Virus record (IMG/VR): IMGVR_UViG_3300032304_001060
Span: 1 to 64,000 of that record
Origin: a virus
Length of the DNA: 64,000 nucleotides
Strand: one strand, 5' to 3'
Every line of letters starts with the position of its first letter. Position 1 is the first letter of the stretch. The notes under the pieces are model-generated. The model ran no database searches and had not been told where the DNA came from. It saw nothing but the letters and a program-made list of their open reading frames with translations. The translations under genes and the position numbers were made by a program. This document shows positions 17,070-46,616 of the stretch, one piece after another.

Positions 17070-17410
17070 GTGCCAAGACCGCCAATGTAACCAGCAGCAG
17101 TTCCGCCAGATCCTGTACCGTTCTTTGAAGAGGCAGGCTTTGTTCCCTTTTTCTTTTGTGAAGGGTCTACAGCGTAAGGATTTGGATTTAATGGGTTTGC
17201 AGACATTGCACCGACTGCAGATGGGTAACCAAATGTGTATCCGTTACCAACAAACCCAGATTCACGCTTACGCTTAAACCGACGGCGCTGTTGATCTTCA
17301 AGGTTAGTTCTTGTAGAGAATTGAGCAGAGAGTGGAGAAGTTGTTGGTCCAGTTAAATACTTACCGTATGTACCTTTAGGACTTCCGAATAGACCGTCAC
17401 CGATCGGCAT
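17066..17410 (-). CDS. Gly/Asn-rich hypothetical protein
   Basis: A 114-residue protein starting MPIGDGLFGSPKGTYGKYL. ATG at 17410 is chosen over an in-frame start 11 codons upstream because AAAGG lies 9 nt before it. The middle is very basic (EDQQRRRFKRKRESG) and the C-terminus is Gly/Ser-rich (GTGSGGTAAGYIGGLGT), suggesting disordered, nucleic-acid-contacting sequence. It overlaps both neighbours slightly. Unrecognised. Confidence 0.6.
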   Translation of the reverse strand: MPIGDGLFGSPKGTYGKYLTGPTTSPLSAQFSTRTNLEDQQRRRFKRKRESGFVGNGYTFGYPSAVGAMSANPLNPNPYAVDPSQKKKGTKPASSKNGTGSGGTAAGYIGGLGT

Positions 17411-17603
17411 AGTTAAAAACCTTTTCTGGATCGTAAACTGCAATAGACTTTTGAATCAATGTGTACCCAAGTTCCCGTGCATGATGTCCACAGAAGTACA
17501 ACTGACCAGTTAGCAGAGTTGCACGAATGGCTGCTCGTGCAGAGCACTTGTCACAACGATCTTCTGCTGTAAGTTCCTCTTCTGTTTTAATGATGGTAGT
17601 CAT
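17397..17603 (-). CDS. DUF7455-like Cys/His zinc protein
   Basis: A 68-residue protein with TAEDRCDKCSARAAIRATLL and YFCGHHARELG, giving CxxC and CxHH zinc ligands. This arrangement is known to me as a small family (DUF7455) widespread in Actinobacteria, where it is often encoded in the chromosome. Its presence supports an actinobacterial host. Function is unknown; a zinc-stabilised adaptor or regulator is likely. Confidence 0.75.
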   Translation of the reverse strand: MTTIIKTEEELTAEDRCDKCSARAAIRATLLTGQLYFCGHHARELGYTLIQKSIAVYDPEKVFNYADR

Positions 17604-17743
17604 TATTTCCCTTCACTTGACGCTGGTCCTTGATCCCCACCAAGTGGTGAAGGACCTTCAAACTGTCGAGTTAACGGCATTGCACCCGAACTGGTCACAC
17701 TAGCACCAGGATTGAACTGCTGCTTAGAAAGATTCCCGTTCAT
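17603..17743 (-). CDS. 46-residue tagged protein (NLSKQQF)
   Basis: A short frame from ATG 17743 to TAA overlapping the next ATG (TAATG). It encodes MNGNLSKQQFNPGASVTSSG followed by a Pro/Gly-rich, probably disordered tail. The N-terminus carries the NLSxxQF motif shared by many small proteins of this phage. Apart from the motif no domain is visible, so the protein is little more than tag plus linker. Confidence 0.6.
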   Translation of the reverse strand: MNGNLSKQQFNPGASVTSSGAMPLTRQFEGPSPLGGDQGPASSEGK

Positions 17744-17792
17744 GTGCTTATTTTGCCCTCTTTATCTCTTCGTGTACGGACATAATAGGCGG

Positions 17793-17900
17793 ATGGACGA
17801 TGCTGCAAGAATTGCCCGTTATACTTGCAACTTCTGTAAAAAACGATACGTTGTACCTGATTTAGCACGAATGTGCGAGGACAAGCACTTGGAGGATTAA
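17793..17900 (+). CDS. 35-residue zinc-finger peptide (plus strand)
   Basis: On the strand opposite to its neighbours, ATG 17793 opens a 35-codon frame: MDDAARIARYTCNFCKKRYV and then ARMCEDKHLED. CxxC followed by C-x3-H is a classical zinc finger. It ends 1 nt before the FmdB-like gene, and its last codons supply that gene's GGAGG site. A longer upstream in-frame extension is less likely because it lacks coding character. Confidence 0.6.
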   Translation: MDDAARIARYTCNFCKKRYVVPDLARMCEDKHLED

Positions 17901-17901
17901 A

Positions 17902-18078
17902 ATGCCTAAATATGAATACGCATGCACTACCTGCGACTTAGATTACGAAAAAGAGCGTAGCATTCACGATTCAGAACCAGAATACTTCTGTGAATCATGC
18001 GGCTACGCTCTTCAACGTGTCTACAACTCTTTTGGCCTCCAATTTAAAGGTGGAGGTTTCTACTCTAGTAGAAGTTAG
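17902..18078 (+). CDS. FmdB-type zinc ribbon protein
   Basis: A 58-residue protein with MPKYEYACTTCDLDYEKERS and EYFCESCGYALQRVYN, matching the FmdB-family zinc ribbon (CxxC...CxxC followed by a basic strand and a Gly-rich GLQFKGGGFY end). These proteins are putative regulators or adaptors. GGAGG sits 7 nt before the ATG. Its stop overlaps the stop of the convergent membrane-protein gene. It forms a two-gene plus-strand island with the zinc-finger peptide. Confidence 0.8.
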   Translation: MPKYEYACTTCDLDYEKERSIHDSEPEYFCESCGYALQRVYNSFGLQFKGGGFYSSRS

Positions 18079-18407
18079 TTATAGTTTGGATCGTCTTCTT
18101 TAGCGCTAGTTGCTGACTTTGTTTCAGCATCTTTTGCTTGACGCTTCTCAACTTCTACATCAGCAACTGTCTTTGCGCCCTTATCGACTGAAGAAAACGC
18201 CGCATTGATTTCATCAAGCGTAAGTTTTCCATCATCCATAAATGCACGAGCCAATTTTTCAACAACAGCGGCAACTGCAGTAAGACCTGCAACTAACATA
18301 GCCTTACCGACCGAGATACCAGCAACTGCACCAGCACCGATAACACCGAGACCGCTTGCTGCAAAGACTGCAACAATACGCATCAATACATTCTTCAGAC
18401 TTGCCAT
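18075..18407 (-). CDS. Membrane protein, holin candidate
   Basis: A 110-residue protein with two adjacent hydrophobic helices (MRIVAVFAASGLGVIGAGAV and AMLVAGLTAVAAVVEKLA) followed by a charged cytoplasmic tail. ATG at 18407 has AGG 9 nt upstream; an ATG two codons earlier is too close to it. The layout resembles actinophage holins encoded near the endolysin, which lies 1 kb upstream in transcription order. Confidence 0.65.
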   Translation of the reverse strand: MASLKNVLMRIVAVFAASGLGVIGAGAVAGISVGKAMLVAGLTAVAAVVEKLARAFMDDGKLTLDEINAAFSSVDKGAKTVADVEVEKRQAKDAETKSATSAKEDDPNYN

Positions 18408-18454
18408 GAACATATACCTGTTCTCTTTTCCCCCTCAGGATGTAAGTCTTATTA

Positions 18455-18718
18455 TCAGTCTTGCTGGATACCAATACGTTCTAAATAGGCTTCTTTTTCG
18501 GTCATGAGGTAGTCCTCAATACGCTTTTTTTGAATAGCAACCTGTTCTTCAGTTGCTGTGATTTGTTCTGTTGTCATTTCGTGGTTTAAGTCCTTAAATG
18601 TCTCAACGGCTAGGTCGAGGTCGGTATTTGCCAAGGCAGCCTTTAACTGCGCTTGTTGCCAAAGAAACTCGGCATGATCAATTTTTCTCTGTAAACGCTT
18701 ATCTTGTGTGTTAGACAT
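18455..18718 (-). CDS. Coiled-coil hypothetical protein
   Basis: An 87-residue, almost fully helical charged protein (QRKIDHAEFLWQQAQLKAAL, then ETFKDLNHEMTTEQITATEE). It has no Cys, signal or catalytic motif. It may start without a leader: TAGGGT lies at -12 to -7 and no ribosome site is visible. It is the first gene of a small unit ending at the holin candidate. Confidence 0.65.
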   Translation of the reverse strand: MSNTQDKRLQRKIDHAEFLWQQAQLKAALANTDLDLAVETFKDLNHEMTTEQITATEEQVAIQKKRIEDYLMTEKEAYLERIGIQQD

Positions 18719-18724
18719 ATGTCT

Positions 18725-18730
18725 ACCCTA
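18725..18730 (-). promoter_or_regulatory. Leaderless -10 candidate (TAGGGT)
   Basis: TAGGGT fits the actinobacterial TAnnnT -10 pattern and sits exactly at -12 to -7 from the ATG at 18718, in a 117-bp gap with no other gene. No clear -35 is seen. Confidence 0.4.
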
Positions 18731-18835
18731 TCAGAAAGTTAATGAAGCAGTTTTTGCGCCCTCATGCTTAGGAGGTTCTTATTCAATTGTGTGACTAATC
18801 TAACTATAAATTAACGTGATTTACATTACAAAGGG

Positions 18836-19384
18836 TTACTTATATTGCTCTTTGACCAAAAATGGGGCAGATGTGTTGGCATCTAGTTGTGCAGCGATCT
18901 CTAGGGCCTTGAGAGGCTTCGCGCCCGCGTGAAGGGCGCCGATAGCGTAACTAGAGCCAGATCCGACCCCGTAGATGCCGTCATCGCTCATACAGATAGA
19001 GCAGTCGTCTGCAACGTCAAATACCTCGCCACCGATAGCAATGAGAAAGTTAAATCGAGAATCATTGACTTTTCCGTCGCCTTTGCCTTCATTAAAGTCA
19101 TATCCGTTATCTGTCAAACACTGTCTAAGATGTGGCATGACTTTGGTAATCATAAAGTGATAAATATCTTGACGATCTTTGAGAGTTGGCTTTGGTGGCT
19201 GCCAAATGTGTTGAGCAATATCACAAGGTCCGATTTCACCAGAACCTGCAATGAGGTACTCACCACGCTCTGTAATCTTCTCCATACGTGGATGATGGTA
19301 GATGCGACCGTTATCACCTGTAACTTGGTTATCGGCAGCAAAAACTACTTTGTCCGTGTATTGGACTGCCACGATCGTTGTCAT
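18836..19384 (-). CDS. Proteasome beta/HslV-like Ntn hydrolase
   Basis: The 182-residue product begins MTTIVAVQYTDKVVFAADNQ. Removal of Met would expose an N-terminal Thr nucleophile; the Asp of AAD lies at mature position 17, as in proteasome beta subunits, and MEKI supplies the general-base Lys near 35. The later GVGSGSSYAIGALHAG matches the conserved GSGS(x)YA element. ATG at 19384 (AAGGGG 7 nt upstream) is chosen because it puts Thr at position 2; an in-frame start 15 codons earlier would bury it. Such proteases self-process into rings. In a phage it might mature virion proteins, degrade host factors or alter host proteasome activity. It sits just before the gap leading to the tail of the lysis region. 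Confidence 0.82.
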   Translation of the reverse strand: MTTIVAVQYTDKVVFAADNQVTGDNGRIYHHPRMEKITERGEYLIAGSGEIGPCDIAQHIWQPPKPTLKDRQDIYHFMITKVMPHLRQCLTDNGYDFNEGKGDGKVNDSRFNFLIAIGGEVFDVADDCSICMSDDGIYGVGSGSSYAIGALHAGAKPLKALEIAAQLDANTSAPFLVKEQYK

Positions 19385-19461
19385 ATCCACCCCTTCAATA
19401 AAGAACCCCCCAAGGATACCATCTGGCATCCATGGAGGGTCTTAAGGTCGGAAATGTCCGA

Positions 19462-20205
19462 TTAGAGGAATTTGATCAATTCTGCCCAAGTCTTAGGGCC
19501 GACGATGCCGTTTGAGTCCACAATGTCGTGATTATCCTGAAATGCGATGACTGCCTTCTTTGTGTGAGGGCCGTAGTCGCCGTCAGCCAAGAGGCCGAGA
19601 GCCCTCTGAACGACCTTGACGCCCTCACCCTTAGCGCCAGGCTTGATCTGGCCTGGGAATGCTGGAGTCTCTGGTGCTGGGATCTTGGCGGTGACTTCGT
19701 TGCCCTTGTAGTTAGGGCGACCCCAACCGACGATAGAGACCAGAACCTTCTTCTTGTTGGCCTTGTACGCACGTGTCTGTGCACATACCTCGCCGCCATT
19801 GCGCTGGCTGCCCTTCTTCTTGCCTGAAGTGTTACCTTCGATAGTCAAGACGACCCCATCTGAGTCGATACCTGTGCAGATACCTACGTGCGAAATTCTA
19901 TCGACGCCGTCTCCTGGGAAATCAAAATACAGGATATCGCCTGGCTGTGGTGATTGACCGCAATCTGCCTCAAACCATGTTCCCATCTTCTTAAATGCTG
20001 CAGCACCTGCCACAGTAGAGACTGTATTAGGGATCTTTACACCTGCTTGATGAGCACACCAGTTAACAAAACTTCCACACCATGCAAGGTAGTTAGCCTT
20101 TGTAAAGGCGCCGTACTTGGTCTCGTTATCCTTTGGACCTTCGATTGTGCCAACCTCTTTTGTTGCAACTTCAATGATTGCTGCTGCTGTTCCTTTTTCT
20201 GCCAT
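19462..20205 (-). CDS. Endolysin: CHAP amidase/endopeptidase with peptidoglycan-binding domain
   Basis: The 247-residue protein has an N-terminal CHAP domain with catalytic Cys 43 in WCGSFVNWC, His 106 in ISHVGI and a polar third residue in TIEGNTS (about 123-125). A linker (APETPAFPGQI) leads to a C-terminal PG_binding_1 domain (GEGVKVVQRALGLLADGDYG, then KKAVIAFQ and GPKTWAEL). It would cleave peptide bonds of the host wall at the end of infection. No signal peptide is present, so it needs a holin. AAGGAAAGG precedes the ATG. Confidence 0.95.
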   Translation of the reverse strand: MAEKGTAAAIIEVATKEVGTIEGPKDNETKYGAFTKANYLAWCGSFVNWCAHQAGVKIPNTVSTVAGAAAFKKMGTWFEADCGQSPQPGDILYFDFPGDGVDRISHVGICTGIDSDGVVLTIEGNTSGKKKGSQRNGGEVCAQTRAYKANKKKVLVSIVGWGRPNYKGNEVTAKIPAPETPAFPGQIKPGAKGEGVKVVQRALGLLADGDYGPHTKKAVIAFQDNHDIVDSNGIVGPKTWAELIKFL

Positions 20206-20207
20206 GG

Positions 20208-20471
20208 TTATCTACCTTTCCTTGGTATGAAGTGATGATGCTCGTCATCGTTCTTAAATTCGCCGTTAGCATGAGCCTCGTCGTGTAACTTGTCCCACGC
20301 CGCATGATCATGCTGTGAAGGACCAACTATAACGCCATTGGCATTTATTGGCGCACCTTTATGCATACTAAACATGTGTGATCTAATGGACCACCCAACT
20401 TGTTTTGGAACCCAGCGCTTCTTCTTTGGAGGCTGTGCTTCCGACATATTCTCTTCTGTGTTAGCAGCCAT
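20208..20471 (-). CDS. His-rich hypothetical protein
   Basis: An 87-residue protein with a basic centre (PPKKKRWVPKQVGWSIRSH) and a His-rich C-terminus (SQHDHAAWDKLHDEAHANG, then DDEHHHFIPRKGR). Histidines could bind metal. It ends 2 nt before the endolysin start, so the two are probably co-translated. No family recognised. Confidence 0.6.
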   Translation of the reverse strand: MAANTEENMSEAQPPKKKRWVPKQVGWSIRSHMFSMHKGAPINANGVIVGPSQHDHAAWDKLHDEAHANGEFKNDDEHHHFIPRKGR

Positions 20472-20474
20472 TGT

Positions 20475-20867
20475 TTACCGTCCTCGCCCTCTATCTGCCT
20501 GCTTTTGAATTCCGCGGTTCTTTTCAACATTGCGCTGCTTGGCACCAATCGCTGTCTTTCGTGCAAGGCCGACTAATTGGTGGAATTGAGAATTGTTAGA
20601 GGTGATAAGCCCTGCAATGTGGGCCAAGTTCTCATTGTTGGTAGAGACACCCATGTGGGTCAATCCAGCCAAGAACATGTTGGTGCCGATCTTCTTAGGG
20701 TGGTTACCTAACTCTGCTGCAATCGCTGCACGGTGGTCGCCTGGTGTCTTTGGCAAGCCTTCGCCTGTGCGAGCAGGTGTGTTTACACCAGCAGCAGCGG
20801 GTGTAAGGAAGCCCTGAAACTGAGCACCAGACACTAGCGTGGTGTGTGGCTTTGGGTTGCTGGTCAT
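20475..20867 (-). CDS. Hypothetical protein with LVSGAQF motif
   Basis: A 130-residue protein starting MTSNPKPHTTLVSGAQFQGF at ATG 20867, inside the stop of the ParB-like gene (ATGA). The LVSGAQF stretch resembles the NLSxxQF tag. The rest is helical (GDHRAAIAAELGNHPKKIGT, then FHQLVGLARKTAIGAKQRN) with a basic C-terminus. No catalytic motif is seen. Confidence 0.65.
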   Translation of the reverse strand: MTSNPKPHTTLVSGAQFQGFLTPAAAGVNTPARTGEGLPKTPGDHRAAIAAELGNHPKKIGTNMFLAGLTHMGVSTNNENLAHIAGLITSNNSQFHQLVGLARKTAIGAKQRNVEKNRGIQKQADRGRGR

Positions 20868-21274
20868 GTGGTATCCCTCTTCGGCTTTCTCCACTCATCA
20901 TGTACTACAGGAACTAACATATTAGGATCTATATCTGCGGCAGCGGCTACACGGTGATGGCCTTCGCTGAGTTGATATCCTGCAGGCCAATGCTTACCCC
21001 CATCAAAATTACGACTTAATTCTACTGGCTTTCTGACACCTTCTCGTTTGATCGAGTCATAGAGAGATGCGCCCTTGCGTGCGCGGGTAGGAAGATATCT
21101 AGCATTTCTAATGGCGCCAGTCTTTGCCTCATATAACTTCTGATGCCAGAGGCTCTCCATATTGTCGCCACCTGGGTCTGCAGAGTAGTTGACCATGGAC
21201 TTGATCTCCCCTGCCTTCATGAACATGGGTAACTGTTCCCATTGCTGAGAAGAGAGATTATTTTCGGCGCTCAT
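20864..21274 (-). CDS. ParB/sulfiredoxin-like GHHR protein 1
   Basis: The 136-residue protein starts MSAENNLSSQQWEQLPMFMK, combining the NLSxxQ tag with a QLPMFM signature shared by three paralogues. The core GYQLSEGHHRVAAAADI contains the GHHR motif of the ParB/Srx fold, which binds nucleotides or acts as a nuclease, and VPVVHDEW follows. It lacks a DNA-binding HTH domain, so it is not a standard partition protein. It overlaps both neighbours by 4 bp. The activity is unknown; CTPase, nuclease or kinase functions occur in this fold. Confidence 0.75.
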   Translation of the reverse strand: MSAENNLSSQQWEQLPMFMKAGEIKSMVNYSADPGGDNMESLWHQKLYEAKTGAIRNARYLPTRARKGASLYDSIKREGVRKPVELSRNFDGGKHWPAGYQLSEGHHRVAAAADIDPNMLVPVVHDEWRKPKRDTT

Positions 21275-21708
21275 TTTCTAAACTTCACTCTCTCTGGAAG
21301 TTTCTCTCCAGTTGACTTGGCCCATGCATCACCTTGGTCACTTCTATCTCCTGAGTGAACTGGTGCTGGTACACCTGTTTTTGCTGCAATATCCTTAGCG
21401 GCTTTTAACATCGCTGTTGCCGCTTTCTTTCTTCTGGCTCCTGGAATAACATGGACGTCTAATATCTCGCCCGTGTTAGAGTTCCAGTGAAGATGACCTA
21501 GAGTAGTAGAAGGTTTATCTGCATCTGGTGCTTGAGATTCCAAGGTTACTCCAGCGGTATGGAGACCAAAGTTAGTTGCAGCATTTCCAAATGGCTTATC
21601 ACCTGTGGGAACTTCATATCGGATATGTGGAGCAAACTGCTTAAGGTTTAAGTTTGTATGTGGGGCTGGTTGCCATCCGTGTCCCCATTCGGAGTGGAAC
21701 TCGCTCAC
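21271..21708 (-). CDS. GNAT-type acetyltransferase-like protein 1
   Basis: A 145-residue protein with an N-terminal segment holding NLNLKQF, then a GNAT-like core. GHLHWNSNTGEILDVHVIPG is the beta4 strand, and ARRKKAATAMLKAAKDIA is the acetyl-CoA pyrophosphate loop and helix. It ends with SDQGDAWAKSTGEKLP, shared with a second copy at 27079-27450. GNAT enzymes transfer acetyl groups to amines; the substrate is unknown. The loop is a degenerate R/Q-x-x-G-x-G/A (ARRKKAA), so activity is uncertain. Confidence 0.75.
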   Translation of the reverse strand: MSEFHSEWGHGWQPAPHTNLNLKQFAPHIRYEVPTGDKPFGNAATNFGLHTAGVTLESQAPDADKPSTTLGHLHWNSNTGEILDVHVIPGARRKKAATAMLKAAKDIAAKTGVPAPVHSGDRSDQGDAWAKSTGEKLPERVKFRK

Positions 21709-21795
21709 TTACTTCTCCTCGCAGATACATTTGCACGTATCTTCTGTGCAGACTCCATATTCGATCTTGTGATCGCACTTGATACAGTTAAGCAT
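21709..21795 (-). CDS. 28-residue double CxxC peptide
   Basis: ATG 21795 opens a 28-codon frame, MLNCIKCDHKIEYGVC, then TCKCICEEK, with seven Cys in a ribbon-like order. Its start overlaps the end of the His-rich gene by 8 bp and its stop abuts the GNAT gene. A longer in-frame version exists upstream but lies inside another gene. It is probably a zinc-binding micro-protein; expression is uncertain. Confidence 0.5.
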   Translation of the reverse strand: MLNCIKCDHKIEYGVCTEDTCKCICEEK

Positions 21796-22165
21796 TGTGC
21801 ATGTGCTCATGTCCGAAGTCGGTGTAGTTCTCACGCTCATCTGCAGGACCTGCATCCATATTTGCGTGGTCTTCATCGTGATATGCCTTAAGAGTTGCGT
21901 GATCCATCTCATGCACATCAAGTGGGTGAGCATAGTGACCAGAAGAAAGCATGTGTGCTTTCAGTGCGGCATGATCACGCACATCGGTCGGTGCAGTACG
22001 CATGTGTGCGTCTACCTGTGCGTGGAGGCGGCCTGCCTGACTAAATGCTTCCATCGCATCAATGTCAGAACGGTCTAAGTGGATATGACTGTCTGCTGGC
22101 TTGTCGCAGCCTAGTTCAGGACAGACACGCGCTTTACCTTGCTGGAACTCTTCACCTCTGCTCAT
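21788..22165 (-). CDS. His/Asp-rich hypothetical protein
   Basis: A 125-residue protein starting MSRGEEFQQGKARVCPELGC. The N-terminus has CPELGCDKPADSHIH, a possible metal site, and the remainder is a His/Asp/Ala-rich helical region (HAALKAHMLSSGHYAHPLDV, DHATLKAYHDEDHANM). Another His-rich protein at 27447-27746 has a similar flavour. The start at 22165 follows the upstream stop by 16 nt; AGG is only 1 nt from the ATG, but CACAAT lies at -12 to -7, so initiation may be leaderless. Confidence 0.6.
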   Translation of the reverse strand: MSRGEEFQQGKARVCPELGCDKPADSHIHLDRSDIDAMEAFSQAGRLHAQVDAHMRTAPTDVRDHAALKAHMLSSGHYAHPLDVHEMDHATLKAYHDEDHANMDAGPADERENYTDFGHEHMHNA

Positions 22166-22171
22166 ACCTGT

Positions 22172-22177
22172 ATTGTG
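22172..22177 (-). promoter_or_regulatory. Leaderless -10 candidate (CACAAT)
   Basis: CACAAT at -12 to -7 from ATG 22165, preceded by CTGT. The same CTGTCACA element with the same 8-nt spacing to an ATGAG start occurs before the gene starting at 25483. Confidence 0.35.
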
Positions 22178-22181
22178 ACAG

Positions 22182-22304
22182 TTAGGCTTTGGTTCCACTC
22201 GCTGTATTCGTAGCAGTTGATTTTGGCCCCATCTGCATGGCGACATTGACGTACATGTCTTTAGGCATTACTTGGGCGCCTAGAAATTGCTGCTGAGAGA
22301 TCAT
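22182..22304 (-). CDS. 40-residue tagged protein (ISQQQF)
   Basis: ATG 22304 overlaps the upstream stop (ATGA) and opens a frame MISQQQFLGAQVMPKDMYVN continuing AMQMGPKSTATNTASGTKA. The ISQQQF opening matches the shared tag. The centre, MPKDMYVNVAMQM, resembles a short domain seen in phage virion proteins; the tail is disordered. Unrecognised otherwise. Confidence 0.65.
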   Translation of the reverse strand: MISQQQFLGAQVMPKDMYVNVAMQMGPKSTATNTASGTKA

Positions 22305-22663
22305 TGCTTGGGCCTCTTTACTGAGGCTGTAATTTGATTCTGCTTATAGCGAGGGATATTCGACCAAGTCTTTTCCCAGTTTGCTTTCATTTCCTGTACC
22401 CGTGGATCAGCACTAGCGTCTTTCCATCGGTGGAAGTCTGGAGAGATAGGAGCAATAAGACCGATCTGGTCACCTTTGTAGTGTGGATCAAGTGAGTTCT
22501 CTCTAGGAACAAAGCCCCACTTAAATGATTTGCCGTAATGCTCATCCCAACTTGGTGCAGGCGCAGAGCCAGGCTTCATAAGGCTAGGTGTTACACGAGG
22601 GTCCATAGTGCGTGGTTTGTAGTTAACAAACTGCTGATCGGAGATGTTTTCTGGAGATGTCAT
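22301..22663 (-). CDS. Tagged hypothetical protein (NISDQQF)
   Basis: A 120-residue protein starting MTSPENISDQQFVNYKPRTM, with the shared tag at residues 6-12. The body (GKSFKWGFVPRENSLDPHYK, IGLIAPISPDFHRWKDASAD) has no catalytic signature I can name. It overlaps both flanking genes by 4 bp, indicating coupled translation. Confidence 0.7.
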   Translation of the reverse strand: MTSPENISDQQFVNYKPRTMDPRVTPSLMKPGSAPAPSWDEHYGKSFKWGFVPRENSLDPHYKGDQIGLIAPISPDFHRWKDASADPRVQEMKANWEKTWSNIPRYKQNQITASVKRPKQ

Positions 22664-22803
22664 TTGTCAAACTGCTCCAAACTCAAATTGGCGTTCTTCA
22701 TCACGTCTTTTACTTGCGCCTCAACTTTAGAGCCATCCCATGCTGCCATAGGGTTCTTTGAGGAAGGAGACTTCAAACTATCTGGTTTCTCTAGTGGGTT
22801 CAC
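22660..22803 (-). CDS. 47-residue protein with the tag at its C-terminus
   Basis: A GTG start at 22803 overlaps the preceding TGA (GTGA), and the frame ends at TGA overlapping the next ATG. The product runs VNPLEKPDSLKSPSSKNPMA, then a short helix (SKVEAQVKDVMK), and ends ANLSLEQFDK. The NLSxxQF motif is therefore at the C-terminus rather than the N-terminus. No other domain is seen. Confidence 0.6.
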   Translation of the reverse strand: MNPLEKPDSLKSPSSKNPMAAWDGSKVEAQVKDVMKNANLSLEQFDK

Positions 22804-23012
22804 TTTTTTCTCCAAACCTTCACTTTAGCATCTGGCTTGTAATGAGTAACTCCTGGCGCTTTTGAACCACGAAGTCTGTGTGCTGCCACGAGGTCCTCAC
22901 CAATCATCTTCACAGCATGTACACGCACTTTCCTAGTGCTATCTAGATAATCACCAGGCTGCATGTCTCTTGCGGCAATGTGTGCTGCCTCAAATTCTGA
23001 AGCCCTACTCAT
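22800..23012 (-). CDS. Small beta-rich hypothetical protein
   Basis: A 70-residue protein: MSRASEFEAAHIAARDMQPG, then DYLDSTRKVRVHAVKMIGED and ending DAKVKVWRKK. The PGD(Y)-turn and following strands suggest a small SH3- or Hint-like barrel. Basic C-terminus. No family named. Confidence 0.6.
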   Translation of the reverse strand: MSRASEFEAAHIAARDMQPGDYLDSTRKVRVHAVKMIGEDLVAAHRLRGSKAPGVTHYKPDAKVKVWRKK

Positions 23013-23034
23013 GCTGGAATCTCTCTTAGTGGAG

Positions 23035-23397
23035 TCATTCGTCGCTCATCTTTTCTCCATAAGTGACGTAACGCTTTACGCCCTTTACTTTAAACCCTTT
23101 ATCAGAGGTCACAGAGTTTTTAGTCCACCATGACGCATCGGTAAGAGTTTTATCTCCCTTTAGAGGCGCTACCTCGTATACAGGAGAGACCATGGATAGT
23201 TGATGCCATCCCTTTTTATTATCTCGTCCTCTATACCCTGTGTACATACGATCGATGACGTGGTCTGCTGCACGGTCTGCATTAGTTCCTGCCCATACAA
23301 CACGATCATTACCTGGGAGGATTATTGTTCCAGGCTTCATCGTCTCTGCGGTTGAGCCGTGGAATAACTGTTGTGAGAGATTATCTTGAGCACTCAT
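23035..23397 (-). CDS. Arr-like ADP-ribosyltransferase-fold protein, tagged
   Basis: The 120-residue protein starts MSAQDNLSQQLFHGSTAETM. After the NLSxxLF tag, FHGSTAETMKPGTIILPGND and the following VVWAGTNADRAADHVIDR resemble the opening of rifampin ADP-ribosyltransferase (Arr), where the FHGT histidine and the first helix bind NAD. SPVYEVAPLKGD parallels the Arr (V)YxVEPxG...D segment. It lies at the head of three further ADP-ribosyltransferase-like genes. The call rests on motif resemblance; some catalytic positions are not conserved, so activity is uncertain. Confidence 0.6.
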   Translation of the reverse strand: MSAQDNLSQQLFHGSTAETMKPGTIILPGNDRVVWAGTNADRAADHVIDRMYTGYRGRDNKKGWHQLSMVSPVYEVAPLKGDKTLTDASWWTKNSVTSDKGFKVKGVKRYVTYGEKMSDE

Positions 23398-23828
23398 GCT
23401 GGCATTACCCTTGGAGGATTAAAGGTGCGGTTGCGGGCACGCAACTTGACTTGCGTTAATCCTTGCTCATCTTTATATTTTTTAGCAGTTTTACGAAATT
23501 GTCGGTCTACCAATACCGCAGCGCCTGGACGAACTGTTACTTCTTTTTCATTAGACCCAGGCCAAATTGCATTTTCCTTAACTGCTTTACGGCCTTCTTT
23601 TGTCTTTGGGTCAATAATTGCAGCAGGATGTACTTTTCCAACAAGCACAACGCTTTTAGTTACGTCTCCAGGAAGTCTAGGAATACTTAACTCAGAAAAG
23701 TTAGAAGCAACACTTGATTTAGATGACCAGTGCATACCAAGAGGTTTTTTAACTTCATGAGTGCCCCCTAATCCACGGTATACAGGGACAGTAAATAAAG
23801 ATGCAGATAAGTTATCTTGGGCGCTCAT
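23394..23828 (-). CDS. ADP-ribosyltransferase-like protein A, tagged
   Basis: The 144-residue protein starts MSAQDNLSASLFTVPVYRGL. It shows the three landmarks of arginine-type mono-ADP-ribosyltransferases in order: Arg in VYRG, a Ser-x-Ser strand (MHWSSKSSVASNFS) and an E-x-E pair in NEKEVTVRPGAAVLV. Such enzymes transfer ADP-ribose from NAD to protein arginines; phage T4 injects one (Alt). The C-terminus RTFNPPRVMPA is shared with the next two paralogues. It overlaps both neighbours by 4 bp. Function is inferred from motifs only. Confidence 0.65.
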   Translation of the reverse strand: MSAQDNLSASLFTVPVYRGLGGTHEVKKPLGMHWSSKSSVASNFSELSIPRLPGDVTKSVVLVGKVHPAAIIDPKTKEGRKAVKENAIWPGSNEKEVTVRPGAAVLVDRQFRKTAKKYKDEQGLTQVKLRARNRTFNPPRVMPA

Positions 23829-24211
23829 GCTGGCATCTCTCGTGGTGGGTTGTATGTGCGCTTACGAGATTTTACATCGCCAAAATTGCGTAGTGTTGTT
23901 CTTCCTGTAACGAGAACTGGTTTACCAAAGCGAACAGGGACTTCTTGCTCATGCTCGTACTCTCCGCCTACTTCTTTTCGCTTAAGAGTACTTGTCCTAG
24001 TCTCTACAGAACTCATAGGAACATTTGCGTGATAGATAACTCGTGTAGATCCAGATTCGCCACCTTTTCGTGCAAATCCCTCTGCTACATCAGGGGATGC
24101 GCTCCAGTGAGTCCCTGCGTGCTTTGACTCTAACTTTTCTCCAGGCTTAATATACAGACCTCTATGCACCTGAAAGAATAACTCATTAGACAAGTTGTCT
24201 TCTGCGCTCAT
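23825..24211 (-). CDS. ADP-ribosyltransferase-like protein B, tagged
   Basis: A 128-residue paralogue of its neighbours, beginning MSAEDNLSNELFFQVHRGLY. Landmarks: Arg in VHRG, THWSASPDVAEGFARK as the Ser-x-Ser strand and helix, and the E-x-E pair in HEQEVPVRFGKPVLVTG. It ends RKRTYNPPREMPA. The order and spacing of motifs fit an R-S-E ADP-ribosyltransferase. The conserved C-terminal codons also carry the purine-rich ribosome site of the next gene, so part of their conservation may be at the RNA level. Confidence 0.68.
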   Translation of the reverse strand: MSAEDNLSNELFFQVHRGLYIKPGEKLESKHAGTHWSASPDVAEGFARKGGESGSTRVIYHANVPMSSVETRTSTLKRKEVGGEYEHEQEVPVRFGKPVLVTGRTTLRNFGDVKSRKRTYNPPREMPA

Positions 24212-24618
24212 GCCTTCATCTCCCTTGGCGGATTATATGTGCGCTTGCGCGTCCTTCTCTCGCCTCGCTCACCATCTGGTAGCAGTGATGGGGGTTTCAG
24301 GCTTGTTTTACCTGTTACCAGCACAGTTGCTCCTTCTTTTACTGGAATTTCTTTTTCGTTTAGTGGATCTTGCCCCATAAAACCAGCAAAACCTCTTTGA
24401 CCAAGTACTTTTGTATTGGTCTCGACAGATGAGATAGGAATCTTGGCGTGAATAATAGTTGCGTGTGTTAAATGAAATTTTGCAGCAAATTTTTTAGCAA
24501 CATTCTCAGATGCGCTGAAGTGCATGCCCACGCCGTAATTAGGATTAAGATTTTTTTCTTTGATGCCTCGATGTGCTTCAAAAAATAGTTCATGAGACAA
24601 GTTATCTTCTGCAGCCAT
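24208..24618 (-). CDS. ADP-ribosyltransferase-like protein C, tagged
   Basis: A 136-residue paralogue starting MAAEDNLSHELFFEAHRGIK at ATG 24618, whose A is shared with the upstream stop (TAATG). An earlier in-frame ATG three codons upstream would break the shared N-terminal pattern. It has Arg in AHRG, GMHFSASENVAKKFAAK and the E-x-E pair in LNEKEIPVKEGATVLVTG, then ends RKRTYNPPREMKA. Same predicted NAD-dependent transferase fold as its neighbours. Confidence 0.68.
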   Translation of the reverse strand: MAAEDNLSHELFFEAHRGIKEKNLNPNYGVGMHFSASENVAKKFAAKFHLTHATIIHAKIPISSVETNTKVLGQRGFAGFMGQDPLNEKEIPVKEGATVLVTGKTSLKPPSLLPDGERGERRTRKRTYNPPREMKA

Positions 24619-25028
24619 TAGTCCCACTTCGATTCATCTAGTGCAACGCCCTTGCGTTCTGCCCAGTCATTATCTGAAGAGGGCTTACCAAATGCTTTGC
24701 CACGCTTAACATCTGACATATCAGCGTGAATGACAGGAACTAATTCATCAGGGCGATGCTTGAGCCCTGCGATAAGGCGATGATGGCCATCAACAAGTTC
24801 TGCCTTCCCACCTTCATCTTGTGATTGGTGAAATATGTGAAATGGCTTTTGAATAGGTTTTTCTTTAATTGCCTTATCAAGACCGCTAAGTTCGTTCTCG
24901 CGCTGTTTCACATCGGTCATCTGGCGCACTCCGCCGTAGTAATGTGAATCGCTCAGTTCGTGAGTTGACGCAATCTCTTTTGGCGTCATAAACATAGCCA
25001 GTTGTTGCGCTGAGACTGAGGATGACAT
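24618..25028 (-). CDS. ParB/sulfiredoxin-like GHHR protein 2
   Basis: The 136-residue protein starts MSSSVSAQQLAMFMTPKEIA and has the core AELVDGHHRLIAGLKHRPDE followed by LVPVIHADMSDVKRG. GHHR marks the ParB/Srx nucleotide-binding loop. The QxMFMTxKEI signature is shared with the other three copies in this region. The stop overlaps the next start (TAATG). Activity unknown. Confidence 0.72.
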   Translation of the reverse strand: MSSSVSAQQLAMFMTPKEIASTHELSDSHYYGGVRQMTDVKQRENELSGLDKAIKEKPIQKPFHIFHQSQDEGGKAELVDGHHRLIAGLKHRPDELVPVIHADMSDVKRGKAFGKPSSDNDWAERKGVALDESKWD

Positions 25029-25483
25029 TAGTAGTCCTCCTTAAGAGCCTGACGAGCATCATGGATATTGTCGTGGTGAACCACTGGAAATAAATAATTA
25101 GGATGTTCTTCTGCTGCAACTGCAACTCTATGATGCCCACCTAGCATCTCTTTTGTTTCAAAATTTATTGGTATGCGTGGTGATTTAAATCCTTCGTGCG
25201 CTATATCTTGAGCCAAGTTACTATATTTTTCGCCGTGCTCTGCTCCACCCATGTCAGCATTAGTTACTGACTCATCATACTTTCGTTCCCATAACTCACT
25301 GTTAGTTTCTGGTCGAATCTTTTTGCCACCCCATTCTTCTGGGTCTGGCTCATCTGTGGCTCTTCCTTCACGATCACCAGGCCAAGGGCTGATGTGAGTT
25401 TGTATCTCTTTACCTGTCATGAACATAGGCAGTTGTCCTTTAGCCAAGTGTTCCCCTAAAGAGAAGTGCTTGCGTCTGCTCAT
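25028..25483 (-). CDS. ParB/sulfiredoxin-like GHHR protein 3
   Basis: A 151-residue protein starting MSRRKHFSLGEHLAKGQLPM and continuing FMTGKEIQTHISPWPGDREG. The core is TKEMLGGHHRVAVAAEEHPN with FPVVHHDN after it. ATG at 25483 is used; a GTG two codons upstream also exists. There is no ribosome site, but CACACT lies at -12 to -7, so it may be a leaderless first gene of the array. Confidence 0.72.
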   Translation of the reverse strand: MSRRKHFSLGEHLAKGQLPMFMTGKEIQTHISPWPGDREGRATDEPDPEEWGGKKIRPETNSELWERKYDESVTNADMGGAEHGEKYSNLAQDIAHEGFKSPRIPINFETKEMLGGHHRVAVAAEEHPNYLFPVVHHDNIHDARQALKEDY

Positions 25484-25489
25484 GCACAC

Positions 25490-25495
25490 AGTGTG
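25490..25495 (-). promoter_or_regulatory. Leaderless -10 candidate (CACACT)
   Basis: CACACT at -12 to -7 from ATG 25483, within CTGTCACA. An 8-nt match to the element before 22165 at identical spacing supports a shared promoter-like signal. Confidence 0.35.
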
Positions 25496-25544
25496 ACAGA
25501 TTTTGCCGCGGTAGGGTTTTTAAAACCGACGAGGCGCTTTTTCC

Positions 25545-26039
25545 TTAGATGTCAAGAGACTGGTTGAACTCATAAAGCGGAATCCGCCATGAGCCCTCTG
25601 GTGCATACTTCCATTCATCCCGCTGACAGTCCTCCATACGCATCCAACCAAATATCTCAACTTCGGAGTAGTAGTCGCGGTCTAGCACTCGTGCGCCCAC
25701 CAGGAGCCATCCCTCTCGGATGTCCTTAGGAAATACAGGTATCTCATCTTTGGTGCGGATGGACTTGACTTCAATGTTCGTACCTACCTCAGCGATGTCT
25801 TTGCGGAAGTAGTGCTCTTCATTGGTGTAGAAGGGGAAGGTGAATGACTTCTTGTATAACTTAGCAACTGCGTACTCTGCAACGATAGTCCTTACATTGG
25901 CGGCAATTTCTGGTTCAAGTATTGCTTTGTTGGTGTAGTTAGGACGATCAACGCTGCCAAACTTAATCATCCATCGGTTGAGTGCGATATCTGCACATGC
26001 ACGTACTTCTTCTTTAGATAACTTGACGATGTGGCTCAT
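25545..26039 (-). CDS. PD-(D/E)XK-like nuclease candidate
   Basis: A 164-residue protein with the layout of small restriction-fold nucleases. A helix with a conserved Glu (TIVAEYAVAKLY) comes first. KDIAEVGTNIEVKSIRTKDE then supplies the D...E-x-K pair, and REGWLLVGARVLDRDYYSE follows as a core strand. Phage members of this group may process DNA ends or cut host DNA. It lies at the end of a run of small genes and the start of the ParB-like array. The fold assignment is inference. Confidence 0.65.
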   Translation of the reverse strand: MSHIVKLSKEEVRACADIALNRWMIKFGSVDRPNYTNKAILEPEIAANVRTIVAEYAVAKLYKKSFTFPFYTNEEHYFRKDIAEVGTNIEVKSIRTKDEIPVFPKDIREGWLLVGARVLDRDYYSEVEIFGWMRMEDCQRDEWKYAPEGSWRIPLYEFNQSLDI

Positions 26040-26042
26040 TCT

Positions 26043-26111
26043 TTATGCGCTCCATAGAGTAAGGGCCAATATAATCCAAAGAACAATTACAGAGGCGATG
26101 ATGTACTTCAT
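26043..26111 (-). CDS. 22-residue single-span membrane peptide
   Basis: ATG 26111, inside the stop of the zinc-ribbon gene (ATGA overlap), opens a 22-codon frame MKYIIASVIVLWIILALTLW ending SA. It is essentially one transmembrane helix. Tight coupling on the upstream side and a 3-nt gap to the next gene support real translation. Possible membrane micro-protein. Confidence 0.5.
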   Translation of the reverse strand: MKYIIASVIVLWIILALTLWSA

Positions 26112-26215
26112 TCGTTATTTTTGCACTTAGGGCACTGCTTTGTTGGATGTGCCGTTCCTTGAGGTACGGTGAATGTGCCGCCGCAATCAAAGCAGAGGAC
26201 GATGAGGTCACTCAC
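26108..26215 (-). CDS. 35-residue zinc ribbon peptide
   Basis: A GTG start at 26215 (AGAGAGAA upstream) gives MSDLIVLCFDCGGTFTVPQG followed by TKQCPKCKNNE. Two CxxC knuckles form a complete zinc ribbon. It overlaps the membrane peptide gene by 4 bp. Confidence 0.65.
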   Translation of the reverse strand: MSDLIVLCFDCGGTFTVPQGTAHPTKQCPKCKNNE

Positions 26216-26227
26216 TGTAGTTCTCTC

Positions 26228-26368
26228 TTAATCTTCTGCCCAGTCGCGGATGACATCGGCCAATTCAGCGATCTCGATGCTGTGCTCGTACCCACTGTCG
26301 TGGAGAAATTCTATAAATTCATCGGGTGCAACTAGTGTGCCGTTAATAATTGAGAATAGATCGCTCAT
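26228..26368 (-). CDS. 46-residue acidic hypothetical protein
   Basis: ATG 26368 overlaps the upstream stop (ATGA), with AAGGAG 9 nt upstream. The product MSDLFSIINGTLVAPDEFIE, then FLHDSGYEHSIEIAELAD and DWAED is acidic and helical. Unrecognised. Confidence 0.6.
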   Translation of the reverse strand: MSDLFSIINGTLVAPDEFIEFLHDSGYEHSIEIAELADVIRDWAED

Positions 26369-26526
26369 ACTGTGCTCCTTGCGATATCTGCACACCGTTC
26401 GCCTGCACGGATAATTGCATAGTCAATGTCATCGATAGGCGGATATGTTGCCTCTAGTTCGTCTTCAATTGCTTTTGCGATGCGCTCACGCAACTCCGTT
26501 AATTGTACTTCGACTGTCTTCTCCAT
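26365..26526 (-). CDS. 53-residue hypothetical protein
   Basis: ATG 26526 (GAAGGGGC 7 nt upstream) opens MEKTVEVQLTELRERIAKAI followed by EDELEATYPPIDDIDYAIIR and AGERCADIARSTV. Helical, charged. It overlaps the next gene by 4 bp. Unrecognised. Confidence 0.6.
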   Translation of the reverse strand: MEKTVEVQLTELRERIAKAIEDELEATYPPIDDIDYAIIRAGERCADIARSTV

Positions 26527-26567
26527 TTTTTGCCCCTTCTTCTTCAGTAAAGGCTACTGCCTCAAAG

Positions 26568-26972
26568 TTATAGCGTCAAATCTTCTTCGTTAGGGGAGGT
26601 AACTACATTCTTATGGTAGTAATGACCGCCGTTATGTGTTCGCACTCGATGACAATTGGCACAGACGACGTCGCATTTATCTAATTCTTCTAGCATCTTG
26701 TCCCAACTGCCTCTCTCGGCTAATTTTGACGGTTGGAATTTCTTTTTATGTGGGTCGCGGTGGTCTAGATCGAGTACGTAGTACGGAAATTTGCCTCCGC
26801 AGTCCTTACAGCCGTGAAATTCCTTAAATTTATGCAAAAAATCACGTAATTGGCTCTTCTTTTCGCTATTTCGAGCAATATATGCGCTTTTATGGCGTCT
26901 GTAGTGCCTCTTTGAGTCTTCACGAGCCTTAATTCGGCCCTCTTCTGTGCCCTTATCTTTTCTTGGAGACAT
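26568..26972 (-). CDS. HNH endonuclease, small
   Basis: A 134-residue protein with a basic helical N-terminus (KAREDSKRHYRRHKSAYIAR) and an HNH module. The module reads CKDCGGKFPYYVLDLDHRDP, then CDVVCANCHRVRTHNGG, with the first CxxC and the final CxxC/H arrangement for zinc and the DH pair for catalysis. A second, related protein is at 35094-35504. Likely a site-specific nicking or homing enzyme. TAGGCT at -12 to -7 and no ribosome site suggest a leaderless start. Confidence 0.88.
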   Translation of the reverse strand: MSPRKDKGTEEGRIKAREDSKRHYRRHKSAYIARNSEKKSQLRDFLHKFKEFHGCKDCGGKFPYYVLDLDHRDPHKKKFQPSKLAERGSWDKMLEELDKCDVVCANCHRVRTHNGGHYYHKNVVTSPNEEDLTL

Positions 26973-26978
26973 GTATGG

Positions 26979-26984
26979 AGCCTA
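26979..26984 (-). promoter_or_regulatory. Leaderless -10 candidate (TAGGCT)
   Basis: TAGGCT fits TAnnnT and lies exactly at -12 to -7 from the ATG at 26972. No Shine-Dalgarno sequence lies between it and the start. Confidence 0.42.
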
Positions 26985-27008
26985 ACACATGTCGTTACTG
27001 AGAAAGTA

Positions 27009-27077
27009 CTAGTGCTCGTTCGCCCAAAACATCACGAAGACAATAAATAAAAACATTAAGGTAAGAAACGCGGCCAT
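27009..27077 (-). CDS. 22-residue single-span membrane peptide
   Basis: ATG 27077, 1 nt after the GNAT gene stop, opens a 22-codon frame MAAFLTLMFLFIVFVMFWAN ending EH. It is a single strongly hydrophobic helix, like the peptide at 26043-26111 but unrelated in sequence. It fills what would otherwise be a gap before the HNH gene. Confidence 0.5.
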   Translation of the reverse strand: MAAFLTLMFLFIVFVMFWANEH

Positions 27078-27078
27078 T

Positions 27079-27450
27079 TTAGTCGAGGTGTCCTTTGTAT
27101 TCTTCAATATTCTTTTTAAGAGAAGGTACTCTACCACCTACCGACTTGGCCCATGCATCGCCTTCGGGGGTTCTGGTCTCAGAATGTTTTGGCGCGATGA
27201 TACTTTCCTTTGCAGATACCTCATGGGCATAGTTATAGAGGGCTGTAGCCACACCCTTACGGCGGTGCTCTGCCTTAACCTCTAGCGAGAGTATCTCACC
27301 GCTATGTGGATGCCAACTCATCTGCCCCATAAAGTCAGGTTGATTCTCAGGTGTACGCCCGATCATTGCTACAAAGTGGGCAGGATCGCCCTCTGGAGTG
27401 TGCCCATAAGCATAAGAGAGATTACCGAACTGTTTGCCCAGGTTGCTCAC
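27079..27450 (-). CDS. GNAT-type acetyltransferase-like protein 2, tagged
   Basis: The 123-residue protein starts MSNLGKQFGNLSYAYGHTPE (NLGKQF tag). Its GNAT core has GQMSWHPHSGEILSLEVKAE and then HRRKGVATALYNYAHEVS, a good acetyl-CoA-binding R-x-x-G-x-A loop. It ends TPEGDAWAKSVGGRVPSLKK, shared with the copy at 21271-21708. It probably acetylates an unknown amine or protein. It overlaps the next upstream gene by 4 bp. Confidence 0.8.
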   Translation of the reverse strand: MSNLGKQFGNLSYAYGHTPEGDPAHFVAMIGRTPENQPDFMGQMSWHPHSGEILSLEVKAEHRRKGVATALYNYAHEVSAKESIIAPKHSETRTPEGDAWAKSVGGRVPSLKKNIEEYKGHLD

Positions 27451-27746
27451 TCAAAGTACTTTCCTAGAGAGGAGATGACAGATTTGGCTGAACGGCGTAG
27501 GTCGCCCGAATCTGATGACCAGTCGCTGCCGTGGGCGTAGTAGTGGGCGTCATCCAGGAGGCTTGAGGCCTGGTCATCGGTCATATTGACGTGGAGATGG
27601 TTGTTGTCACTTCCCTCGATATGGCTATGTGACAGCCCTGTCTCATCGCCCATGCGATCGATGTGGTCCATCAGGAAGTGATGGCCAGCATGACGTATCT
27701 TAAAGATGTCTCGTGGCTCATCAAATTGTTTTCCTAAGTTGCTCAT
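27447..27746 (-). CDS. His-rich tagged hypothetical protein
   Basis: A 99-residue protein starting MSNLGKQFDEPRDIFKIRHA and ending SAKSVISSLGKYFE, so a tag-like motif is present at both ends (NLGKQF and SLGKYF). The body contains HHFLMDHIDRMGDE and SHSHIEGSDNNHLHVNMTDD, a possible metal-binding or phosphoesterase-like region. ATG 27746 is preferred over the GTG one codon upstream because AGGAG is then 5 nt away. Confidence 0.65.
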   Translation of the reverse strand: MSNLGKQFDEPRDIFKIRHAGHHFLMDHIDRMGDETGLSHSHIEGSDNNHLHVNMTDDQASSLLDDAHYYAHGSDWSSDSGDLRRSAKSVISSLGKYFE

Positions 27747-27754
27747 CACAACTC

Positions 27755-28252
27755 CTACTTATACGTATCATCGTACTGCGCCTCAATCATTGAGCCGTAG
27801 TACTTCACTGGATGTAGGGCGTCTTTAAATTGCTCTGCTGACAATGCAACCCTATGGTGACCGCCGAGGATGTAGGACTGAACAGGGAATCCTTTGAGGT
27901 TGGTCTCAGGGCGTGGCTGTAGCGAGATTACTCCGTGAGTGCCGCCCTGCTTCTCCATGACCTTCTTGAGTGTAGAGCGGGGTGTCACCCCTAGTTTCTG
28001 GCCGTGCTTGGTCACACGGTCTATGCCCTTGAGTCGAGGACTACCGACGCCGTAGCGGGCGCTATTTTCACCAGTCTCCTTGGACTCCCGCAATTTGACA
28101 TCCCAGGCCTGATCTTCTTCTAGGCCGTCTCGGTCTCCTGGGTACATGTGGAAATTGTCTTTGATCTCTTGACCCGTCATAAACATAGGCTGATATCCCT
28201 GAGTTAGGGCTTTGCCCAAATCCTTGGGAGGGGTCATGCGCTTCTTGGCCAT
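27755..28252 (-). CDS. ParB/sulfiredoxin-like GHHR protein 4
   Basis: A 165-residue protein starting MAKKRMTPPKDLGKALTQGY, then QPMFMTGQEIKDNF, and the core QSYILGGHHRVALSAEQFKD. It is the largest of the four paralogues and the first minus-strand gene leaving the control region. ATG 28252 is chosen over one six codons upstream because CACAAT lies at -12 to -7 and no ribosome site exists for either. Activity unknown. Confidence 0.72.
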   Translation of the reverse strand: MAKKRMTPPKDLGKALTQGYQPMFMTGQEIKDNFHMYPGDRDGLEEDQAWDVKLRESKETGENSARYGVGSPRLKGIDRVTKHGQKLGVTPRSTLKKVMEKQGGTHGVISLQPRPETNLKGFPVQSYILGGHHRVALSAEQFKDALHPVKYYGSMIEAQYDDTYK

Positions 28253-28264: not shown

Positions 28265-28387
28265 GCCCATTTTGGCTACTGCCTCAGCCTAAAAGTCGTC
28301 AACCGTGTCTCTCACCTGGCTGGTCCTGTGCGCGATCTCGCTTAATGGTGGGGGGTCAACTGATCATCTTGTCTTGTGTTAACAACA

Positions 28388-46331: not shown

Positions 46332-46616
46332 TTACTTCCCACTCACTGGTGGAAATCTAAACTCGCTAGGATTCTGTGGTCCACTTGGAGTCTTAGGAAT
46401 TGGTGGGACAGGTGTTTTTGGGCGTGAAGTAGGGGTTCCTACTTGCAGAATGTTTCCAGCACGAGTGTGTGCCCGTTGCTGGAAAGCATTTTGCCAGATC
46501 GGATGGCTTGCAGGAAAAGTAAGTATTTGATTTTTAGGCATTGGAGTTACATTTGGTTTGAGGAAATTTTTGACTTTTGCACCAACAGACTTAAATTGGC
46601 GAGGAGAAAGGTTCAT
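46332..46616 (-). CDS. Tagged Pro-rich protein (NLSPRQF)
   Basis: A 94-residue protein starting MNLSPRQFKSVGAKVKNFLK, with the tag at residues 2-8. A basic helix and a long Pro/Thr-rich disordered tail (TSRPKTPVPPIPKTPSGPQN) follow. It looks like a tag plus DNA-binding linker. No enzymatic motif. Confidence 0.62.
   Translation of the reverse strand: MNLSPRQFKSVGAKVKNFLKPNVTPMPKNQILTFPASHPIWQNAFQQRAHTRAGNILQVGTPTSRPKTPVPPIPKTPSGPQNPSEFRFPPVSGK

Follow-up and report, generated by a model that had tools for sequence, protein, structure and literature searches.

A short terminal peptide on diverse small proteins of freshwater phages as a candidate docking tag for effectors

The DNA analyzed here, referred to as the window, is a stretch of 64,000 nt from a virus (positions 1 to 64,000 of the 94,728-base IMG/VR virus record IMGVR_UViG_3300032304_001060). 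Between 17.6 and 28.3 kb it contains a run of genes for small proteins that share a short terminal peptide, which we call tag 1 (pattern N-[LI]-[SNG]-x(1-2)-[QL]-[FW], placed in residues 2-26). The initial annotation, made from the letters alone, had listed such motifs on a series of proteins, regarded the proteins as unrelated and proposed that the motif loads cargo into the virion. All the listed motifs were found in the named open reading frames (ORFs), on the minus strand throughout, including the C-terminal copy NLSLEQF (22660-22803) and the protein with copies at both ends (NLGKQF and SLGKYF; 27447-27746). The motif turned out to be less uniform than described: LVSGAQF, SVSAQQL and ISQQQF match it weakly, and NLGKQF lacks one residue. 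Its range is also wider, as further tags lie outside the interval (at 46332, 49615 and 50223). The tagged ORFs mostly start with ATG, and several neighbours overlap by 4 nt. The short ORF 22182-22304 was confirmed by homologues, and 17603-17743 is supported by homologues as well.

The window belongs to a lineage of uncultured lake or freshwater phages, myovirus-like and roughly 80-98 kb in size. The head genes of its genome encode an SPP1-type portal, a separate scaffold, a large terminase and a major capsid protein with 60-62% identity to those of Streptomyces phages LuckySocke, Alone3, BRock, pSt2308 and GiJojo; BRock is a described myovirus (PMC7453282). The capsid protein is plentiful in IMG/VR, with at least 599 matching stretches, and each of the best 80, which were kept, is at least 80% identical. 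As a sample of the lineage, sixteen further contigs (G001-G016) were read in large pieces, with LuckySocke as the outgroup; ORFs were called mechanically.

Tag 1 was found in 99 of 3,224 non-redundant N-termini of the lineage, while 1.2 were expected from shuffling (maximum of 4 in 200 shuffles). In the same set, it was present in 8 of 13,641 internal windows and at nine C-termini. The lineage-wide total is inflated, since one search seed held the tag and some loci were retrieved with tag patterns or tag-containing queries; the contrast between N-terminal and internal positions is not affected. A position weight matrix trained on related loci gave 10 matches among 174 N-termini in the window's genome, where shuffling predicts 0.1; in LuckySocke, it matched none of 209. 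The initial annotation had suggested comparing the motif frequency with that in shuffled proteins, and this comparison came out in favour of a genuine motif. In 60 related loci, retrieved with one protein resembling ADP-ribosyltransferases (ARTs), the stretch of residues 1-32 held 208 instances of the strict motif; all but nine of them (199) start at residues 1-10, and nearly none were seen elsewhere.

Tag 1 shows little variation at N, L, [SN], [QL] and [FW], in contrast to its two middle residues and the flanking positions. In a comparison of about 100 distinct bodies (a body being the protein apart from its tag), the Leu of the tag is encoded by all six Leu codons and the Ser by all six Ser codons; both codons of Gln and of Phe are used freely. 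As synonymous codons are free to vary, selection acts on the peptide. A DNA-level motif or recombination signal is ruled out by this codon diversity.

The tag carriers include Arr-like and other ART-like proteins, GNAT acetyltransferases, ParB-like proteins and short peptides. They are 40-270 amino acids long and mostly single-domain; several of 40-60 amino acids have no known domain. The view that the bodies are unrelated holds in part. The region has about ten body families, but the proteins at 23394, 23825 and 24208 form one ART-like family, those at 21271 and 27079 are both GNATs, and those at 20864, 24618, 25028 and 27755 are all ParB-like. Common descent accounts for part of the sharing within these three groups.

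The first body cluster has a conserved HG[ST] motif with an invariant His13; 12 of its 31 members match the rifampin ART profile PF12120, and a profile search of PDB found 2hw2 (E 9e-4). By its sequence, this cluster is an Arr-like ADP-ribosyltransferase. The second cluster (R-S-E-like) has invariant R17, E88 and E90. Its AlphaFold2 (AF2) model has a pLDDT of 86, with residues 1-7, where the tag starts, disordered ahead of the first strand. The model matched phage proteins in BFVD and gave weak matches to ARTs in PDB (best E 0.02, TM below 0.5); because of this weak resemblance we call the cluster ART-like. Bodies that share 20-30% identity still bear the tag. Searches of GenBank phages with the bodies (tblastn) produced no or weak matches.

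A second tag was detected on bodies of the same kinds in sister contigs, where the proteins begin with M-[GAT]-R-N-N-A-D-F-x-G. Its pattern, [GAT]-R-N-N-x-[DE]-F (tag 2), occurs at 44 N-termini of the same 3,224 proteins, with 0.4 expected, and once internally. In contig L192, a run of adjoining genes carries tag 2; variants of it are present on three proteins of the window's genome (at 22800, 21788 and 48280). We grouped 297 tagged proteins into 64 body clusters, 27 of them with at least two members; a few small clusters are chance matches, e.g. to membrane segments. Homologous bodies carry both tag types in eight clusters, among them the Arr-like ART cluster (43 proteins with tag 1 and 8 with tag 2), the second ART-like family (47 and 2) and the GNATs (18 and 14). 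One such swap involves protein 22800-23012, which carries SRASEF; the alignment with a 69%-identical protein bearing NLSKPQF at its N-terminus starts at the [EQ]F of the tag. The terminus may change as well: an ART-like protein of G009 carries a C-terminal copy and ends with ALNGAQFNRG. Among 51 contigs with at least two tagged proteins, 37 have tag 1 only, five have tag 2 only and nine have both. The tags NLSxxQF and RNNxDF thus seem to do the same job and to substitute for each other on homologous bodies. The number of body clusters, the scrambled synonymous codons and the swaps of terminus and type bear out the notion of a portable peptide on diverse effector-like proteins. We also observed an Hsp20-like gene beside tag-2 clusters (L192 10104-10619, L193 7319-7855, G006 34646-35167, G009 87917-88459 and G010 51434-51955); it was not found in the tag-1 genomes G000, G001 and G008.

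Without any function of the peptide, the common N-terminus could have arisen as a side effect when genes were duplicated or recombined by way of conserved DNA at their starts. Genes for ART-like, GNAT and ParB-like proteins have been amplified in tandem, and several ORFs have the start MSAxDNLS in common, as such an origin would predict. The scrambled synonymous positions, the persistence of the tag on strongly diverged bodies, its shifts to the C-terminus and its changes of type all speak against this explanation, which we regard as highly improbable.

In a scan of 2.9 million viral contigs of IMG/VR, the tag-2 pattern turned up in 36 stretches and the tag-1 pattern in 23. Almost all of them sit in contigs bearing other genes of the lineage; the exceptions (L208 and L211) look like chance matches. 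The tag-1 pattern was not found in a 257-Gb collection of prokaryote genomes, and LuckySocke has neither the tag nor the effector cluster. Judged from these sequence scans, both tags appear to be confined to this lineage. No earlier description of such a tag was found in the literature searched.

The tag could instead be a short linear motif for a host protein, such as RNA polymerase, the sliding clamp or a protease adaptor, and guide the effectors there. Docking of this kind typically uses short terminal motifs with an aromatic last residue, and phages are known whose ARTs and GNATs modify proteins of the host. However, the pattern differs from the bacterial clamp motif QL[SD]LF. A host target also agrees poorly with the lack of tag 1 in the other phages and prokaryote genomes scanned, with two different tags on the same bodies and with tags on 40-60-residue peptides that have no known domain; we find it quite unlikely.

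The structure search with the ART-like model pointed to Mycobacterium phages, with matches to a Myrna protein and to ParB-like proteins of Stubby and Bigswole. When profiles were then made from the tagged bodies without their tags, they matched gp097 of Mycobacterium phage Tonenili (751 residues) in several places: a ParB-like domain at residues 45-132 (E 1e-12), GNAT domains at 167-252 (E 1e-19) and 632-715 (E 8e-11) and an ART-like domain at 471-566 (E 7e-12). The gp097 gene lies a few genes upstream of the portal gene. Other matches were Astraea gp81 (ART-like and ParB-like), Myrna gp78 (ART-like) and Phabba gp084 (GNAT alone); in Tonenili, Astraea and Myrna the matching proteins are single proteins near the portal. 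As the term is used by Iyer et al. (2017), Tonenili gp097 is a polyvalent protein; for this class, injection along with the DNA has been argued (PMC5512222). Polyvalent proteins and phage ARTs have been argued to be packaged in virions, especially in myoviruses (PMC5512222, PMC9503650), and a myovirus bias has been reported for NAD/ADP-ribose proteins (PMC9503650). The two systems have the ParB-like, GNAT and ART-like domain set in common. In the window's lineage, however, these disparate activities reside on separate small polypeptides united only by the tag, whereas a polyvalent protein fuses several domains covalently. By analogy, the simplest reading is that the tag stands in for the covalent link, and the presence of homologues of several bodies in one polyvalent protein near the portal fits with docking of cargo.

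We therefore consider it on balance probable that the tagged proteins are a set of effectors sharing a docking peptide for a phage partner, most likely for loading into the virion and co-delivery with the DNA. Small effectors (ART-like, GNAT and ParB-like proteins and accessory peptides) would display the peptide at one terminus, usually the N-terminus. Binding to a phage-encoded partner would collect them, most likely into the assembling virion during head assembly; they would be delivered with the genome and act early on the next host cell. In mycobacteriophages, the same domains would be delivered as one fused polyvalent protein. With the tag in place of fusion, effectors could be gained or lost gene by gene. 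The docking to a partner encoded by the phage, the loading into virions, the ejection and the targets in the host are inferences; loading is suggested by the polyvalent-protein parallel, by the myovirus bias mentioned above and by the strand and neighbourhood of the genes. All 39 tagged genes are oriented like the structural genes, compared with 81% of all ORFs, although this bias is weak support because the tagged cases are clustered. The cargo-loading interpretation of the initial annotation is plausible. On a more specific version, a modular non-covalent system in which a receptor encoded by the phage recognises either tag and brings dozens of interchangeable enzymes directed against the host into the virion, we are evenly divided.

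Alternatively, the tag might bring the effectors together within the infected cell, on a hub encoded by the phage, in a non-covalent complex that is not packaged. The restriction to one lineage suggests a phage-encoded partner here too, and the mycobacteriophage fusion shows that the domains belong together but is silent on where they act. Nevertheless, the tagged genes have the strand and neighbourhood of late genes, and both polyvalent proteins and phage ARTs have been argued to be packaged (PMC5512222, PMC9503650), so that we see an intracellular hub as unlikely.

Several observations weigh against virion loading by a dedicated receptor. Relatives G003 and G004 have the same capsid genes and few or no tags; with a core capsid protein as the receptor, the system would therefore be dispensable. 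The nine contigs with both tags are unexpected under a single co-evolving receptor. That the polyvalent proteins of mycobacteriophages are part of the virion is itself a prediction. Finally, none of the receptor candidates examined survived. The scaffold has a tag-like N-terminal VTNADLF, but its first 35 residues are not conserved. A MoxR-like AAA+ ATPase (30883-31764) and a VWA protein (31774-33672), both on the plus strand, form a CobS/CobT-like pair that is kept in most genomes of the lineage and absent from LuckySocke; considered as a loader by analogy with Pvc15, the pair was not found in the tag-bearing G010 (with a tagged ART and a tagged GNAT) or in G011. Candidate receptors would also include the core genes 8865-9116, 12364-13059 and 13049-13291, none of which was found in LuckySocke, as well as the portal and the major capsid protein.

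A peptidase of the HslV/proteasome family is encoded at 18836-19429 (also delimited as 18836-19384; minus strand), between the endolysin and small late genes. Its gene is present in tag-1 genomes (G000, G001, G008, G002 and, weakly, G015), while most tag-2 genomes lack it. This proximity to the cluster, mainly in tag-1 genomes, would fit a tag that serves as a processing or degradation signal for a protease, an option we rate as very unlikely. No conserved residue or cleavage site was found downstream of the tag, the C-terminal copies do not fit such a signal, and most tag-2 genomes are without the gene; the spacing speaks against this peptidase as a tag reader as well. In Arr-like bodies, the distance from the tag to the catalytic HG[ST] is 0-25 residues and is zero in 15 of 51, so cleavage would often harm the fold. 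No prohead protease was seen among the head genes scanned (Pfam, PHROGs); the one peptidase detected was the HslV-like one, confined to some genomes. With no conserved cleavage site and a tag that often abuts the catalytic fold, the tag is probably retained rather than cleaved.

Short peptides that load proteins into particles are known from several systems. In T4, about 10 residues of the capsid-targeting sequence suffice for loading (PMC9026906). The parallel drawn earlier with this sequence (internal proteins IPI-III and Alt) stands as far as a short N-terminal peptide on unrelated small proteins is concerned, and T4 also ejects an ADP-ribosyltransferase. It fails in one respect, as removal by a prohead protease at a conserved site is indicated neither by the sequence nor by the 0-25-residue spacing to the His. 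Other differences are that the peptide sequence is not the same, that the tag often directly abuts the catalytic fold and that C-terminal copies and two interchangeable types exist; no prohead protease was recognised among the head genes examined. Phage P1 loads several defence-countering proteins (the DarB/Dar antirestriction set) into its head, with a targeting sequence shown for DarB (PMC9024508); unlike here, it was described for DarB and not as a motif over many bodies, the proteins are large and a prohead protease is present. In the extracellular contractile injection systems (Photorhabdus virulence cassettes), N-terminal signal peptides load diverse effectors into a contractile particle (PMC11495950). 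That particle is tail-like and devoid of DNA, and the AAA+ ATPase Pvc15 aids loading, whereas the AAA+/VWA pair and the tag do not co-occur consistently here. The cargo-loading peptide of encapsulins is likewise short and portable and recruits cargo to an HK97-fold shell. It is C-terminal, differs in sequence and serves a bacterial compartment; our tag is mostly N-terminal and the shell is a phage major head protein accompanied by a scaffold and a terminase. The tag is thus nearest to a capsid-targeting sequence in its presumed role and to polyvalent proteins in its content, and lacks one defining feature of each.

If the docking interpretation is true, the tag offers a sequence rule for spotting injected effectors in a phage group common in IMG/VR metagenomes. 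Hypothetical proteins would become a predicted effector arsenal, a 7-residue loading tag would be on offer, and an effector could be added or removed by gain of a 7-residue peptide with no gene fusion needed. A survey of 2019 took the ART genes that it found in freshwater phages to encode toxins directed at eukaryotic grazers (PMC6802176); the tagged ARTs, possibly other genes than those surveyed, appear to belong to a set with the bacterial host as its target.

The tagged proteins of the window are listed in Table 1.

Table 1. Tags and tag-like motifs in the window (all on the minus strand; lengths in amino acids, aa)
Motif	Motif position	Strand	Protein	Remark
Tag-1-like PLSAQF (residues 26-31)	17318..17335	-	17066-17410	Homologues NLSNQF, TLSAQF
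Tag 1 NLSKQQF	17714..17734	-	17603-17743, 46 aa	Slot of relatives' 57-61-aa proteins (tag 1 or tag 2)
Weak tag-1-like LVSGAQF	20817..20837	-	20475-20867	Homologue search: none found
Tag 1 NLSSQQW	21239..21259	-	20864-21274, ParB-like	
Tag 1 NLNLKQF	21634..21654	-	21271-21708, GNAT acetyltransferase	
Tag-2-like SRGEEF	22145..22162	-	21788-22165	Start shifted to internal ATG
Tag-1-like ISQQQF	22284..22301	-	22182-22304, 40 aa	Relatives: NLSPQQF
Tag 1 NISDQQF	22628..22648	-	22301-22663, no family	
C-terminal tag 1 NLSLEQF	22669..22689	-	22660-22803, 47 aa	
Tag-2-like SRASEF	22992..23009	-	22800-23012	69%-identical L236 homologue: tag 1 NLSKPQF
Tag 1 NLSQQLF	23362..23382	-	23035-23397, Arr-like ADP-ribosyltransferase	
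Tag 1 NLSASLF	23793..23813	-	23394-23828, ART-like	
Tag 1 NLSNELF	24176..24196	-	23825-24211, ART-like	Residues 1-7 disordered in AF2 model
Tag 1 NLSHELF	24583..24603	-	24208-24618, ART-like	
Weak tag 1 SVSAQQL	24999..25019	-	24618-25028, ParB-like	
Short tag 1 NLGKQF	27427..27444	-	27079-27450, GNAT	
Short tag 1 NLGKQF	27723..27740	-	27447-27746, His-rich	C-terminal second copy SLGKYF at 27453-27470
Tag 1 NLSPRQF	46593..46613	-	46332-46616	Second tagged cluster
Tag-2-like GRTNEF	49054..49071	-	48280-49083, DUF7178-like	26%-identical G007 protein: NLAQAQF
Tag-1-like ILSDAQF	50185..50205	-	49615-50223	57%-identical G007 homologue: VLSHAQF
Tag-1-like PLSSTQF	50451..50471	-	50223-50474	Relatives PLSSSQF, SLSSSQF

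The homologue of protein 21788-22165 at position 4561 of contig L236 starts with MSVSKNEEFQQG. Two further candidates were rejected. NLDPELF in 44247-45185 is not a tag and belongs to a body conserved in LuckySocke (ILDPQLF). Protein 49074-49613 contains NNxSPSQNWQSLG, which is tag-1-like in some relatives (NNLSPQQNWQ); the region varies in a different way and was not counted.

Other genes of the window were also noted. A stretch of about 1.5 kb with scant conserved coding sequence (28271-29811) separates the divergent tagged operon from the rightward genes and may contain promoters. A tyrosine integrase is encoded at 37749-39011 on the plus, non-structural strand. Homologues of it occur in G001-G003, G008, G009 and G012, so that the lineage may be partly temperate, though BRock was described as virulent. 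A B12-dependent (class II) ribonucleotide reductase (40062-42092, minus strand) is present in the lineage. The queuine tRNA-ribosyltransferase-like protein (phrog_887; 42248-43756, minus strand) is kept across the lineage and is possibly an enzyme of DNA 7-deazaguanine modification. Close to the lysis genes, 14689-16818 (minus strand) encodes a large, secreted-looking protein with Pro/Glu/Ser repeats and hydrophobic ends that differs between genomes. The protein encoded at 12364-13059 (minus strand) has an N-terminus, MATNxNGNLLDxxGxVxxDFVWGNxPxQPND, that is near-invariant in the lineage, while the remainder is variable; with a weak PASTA match, it is possibly a capsid-attached fibre with a conserved docking domain.

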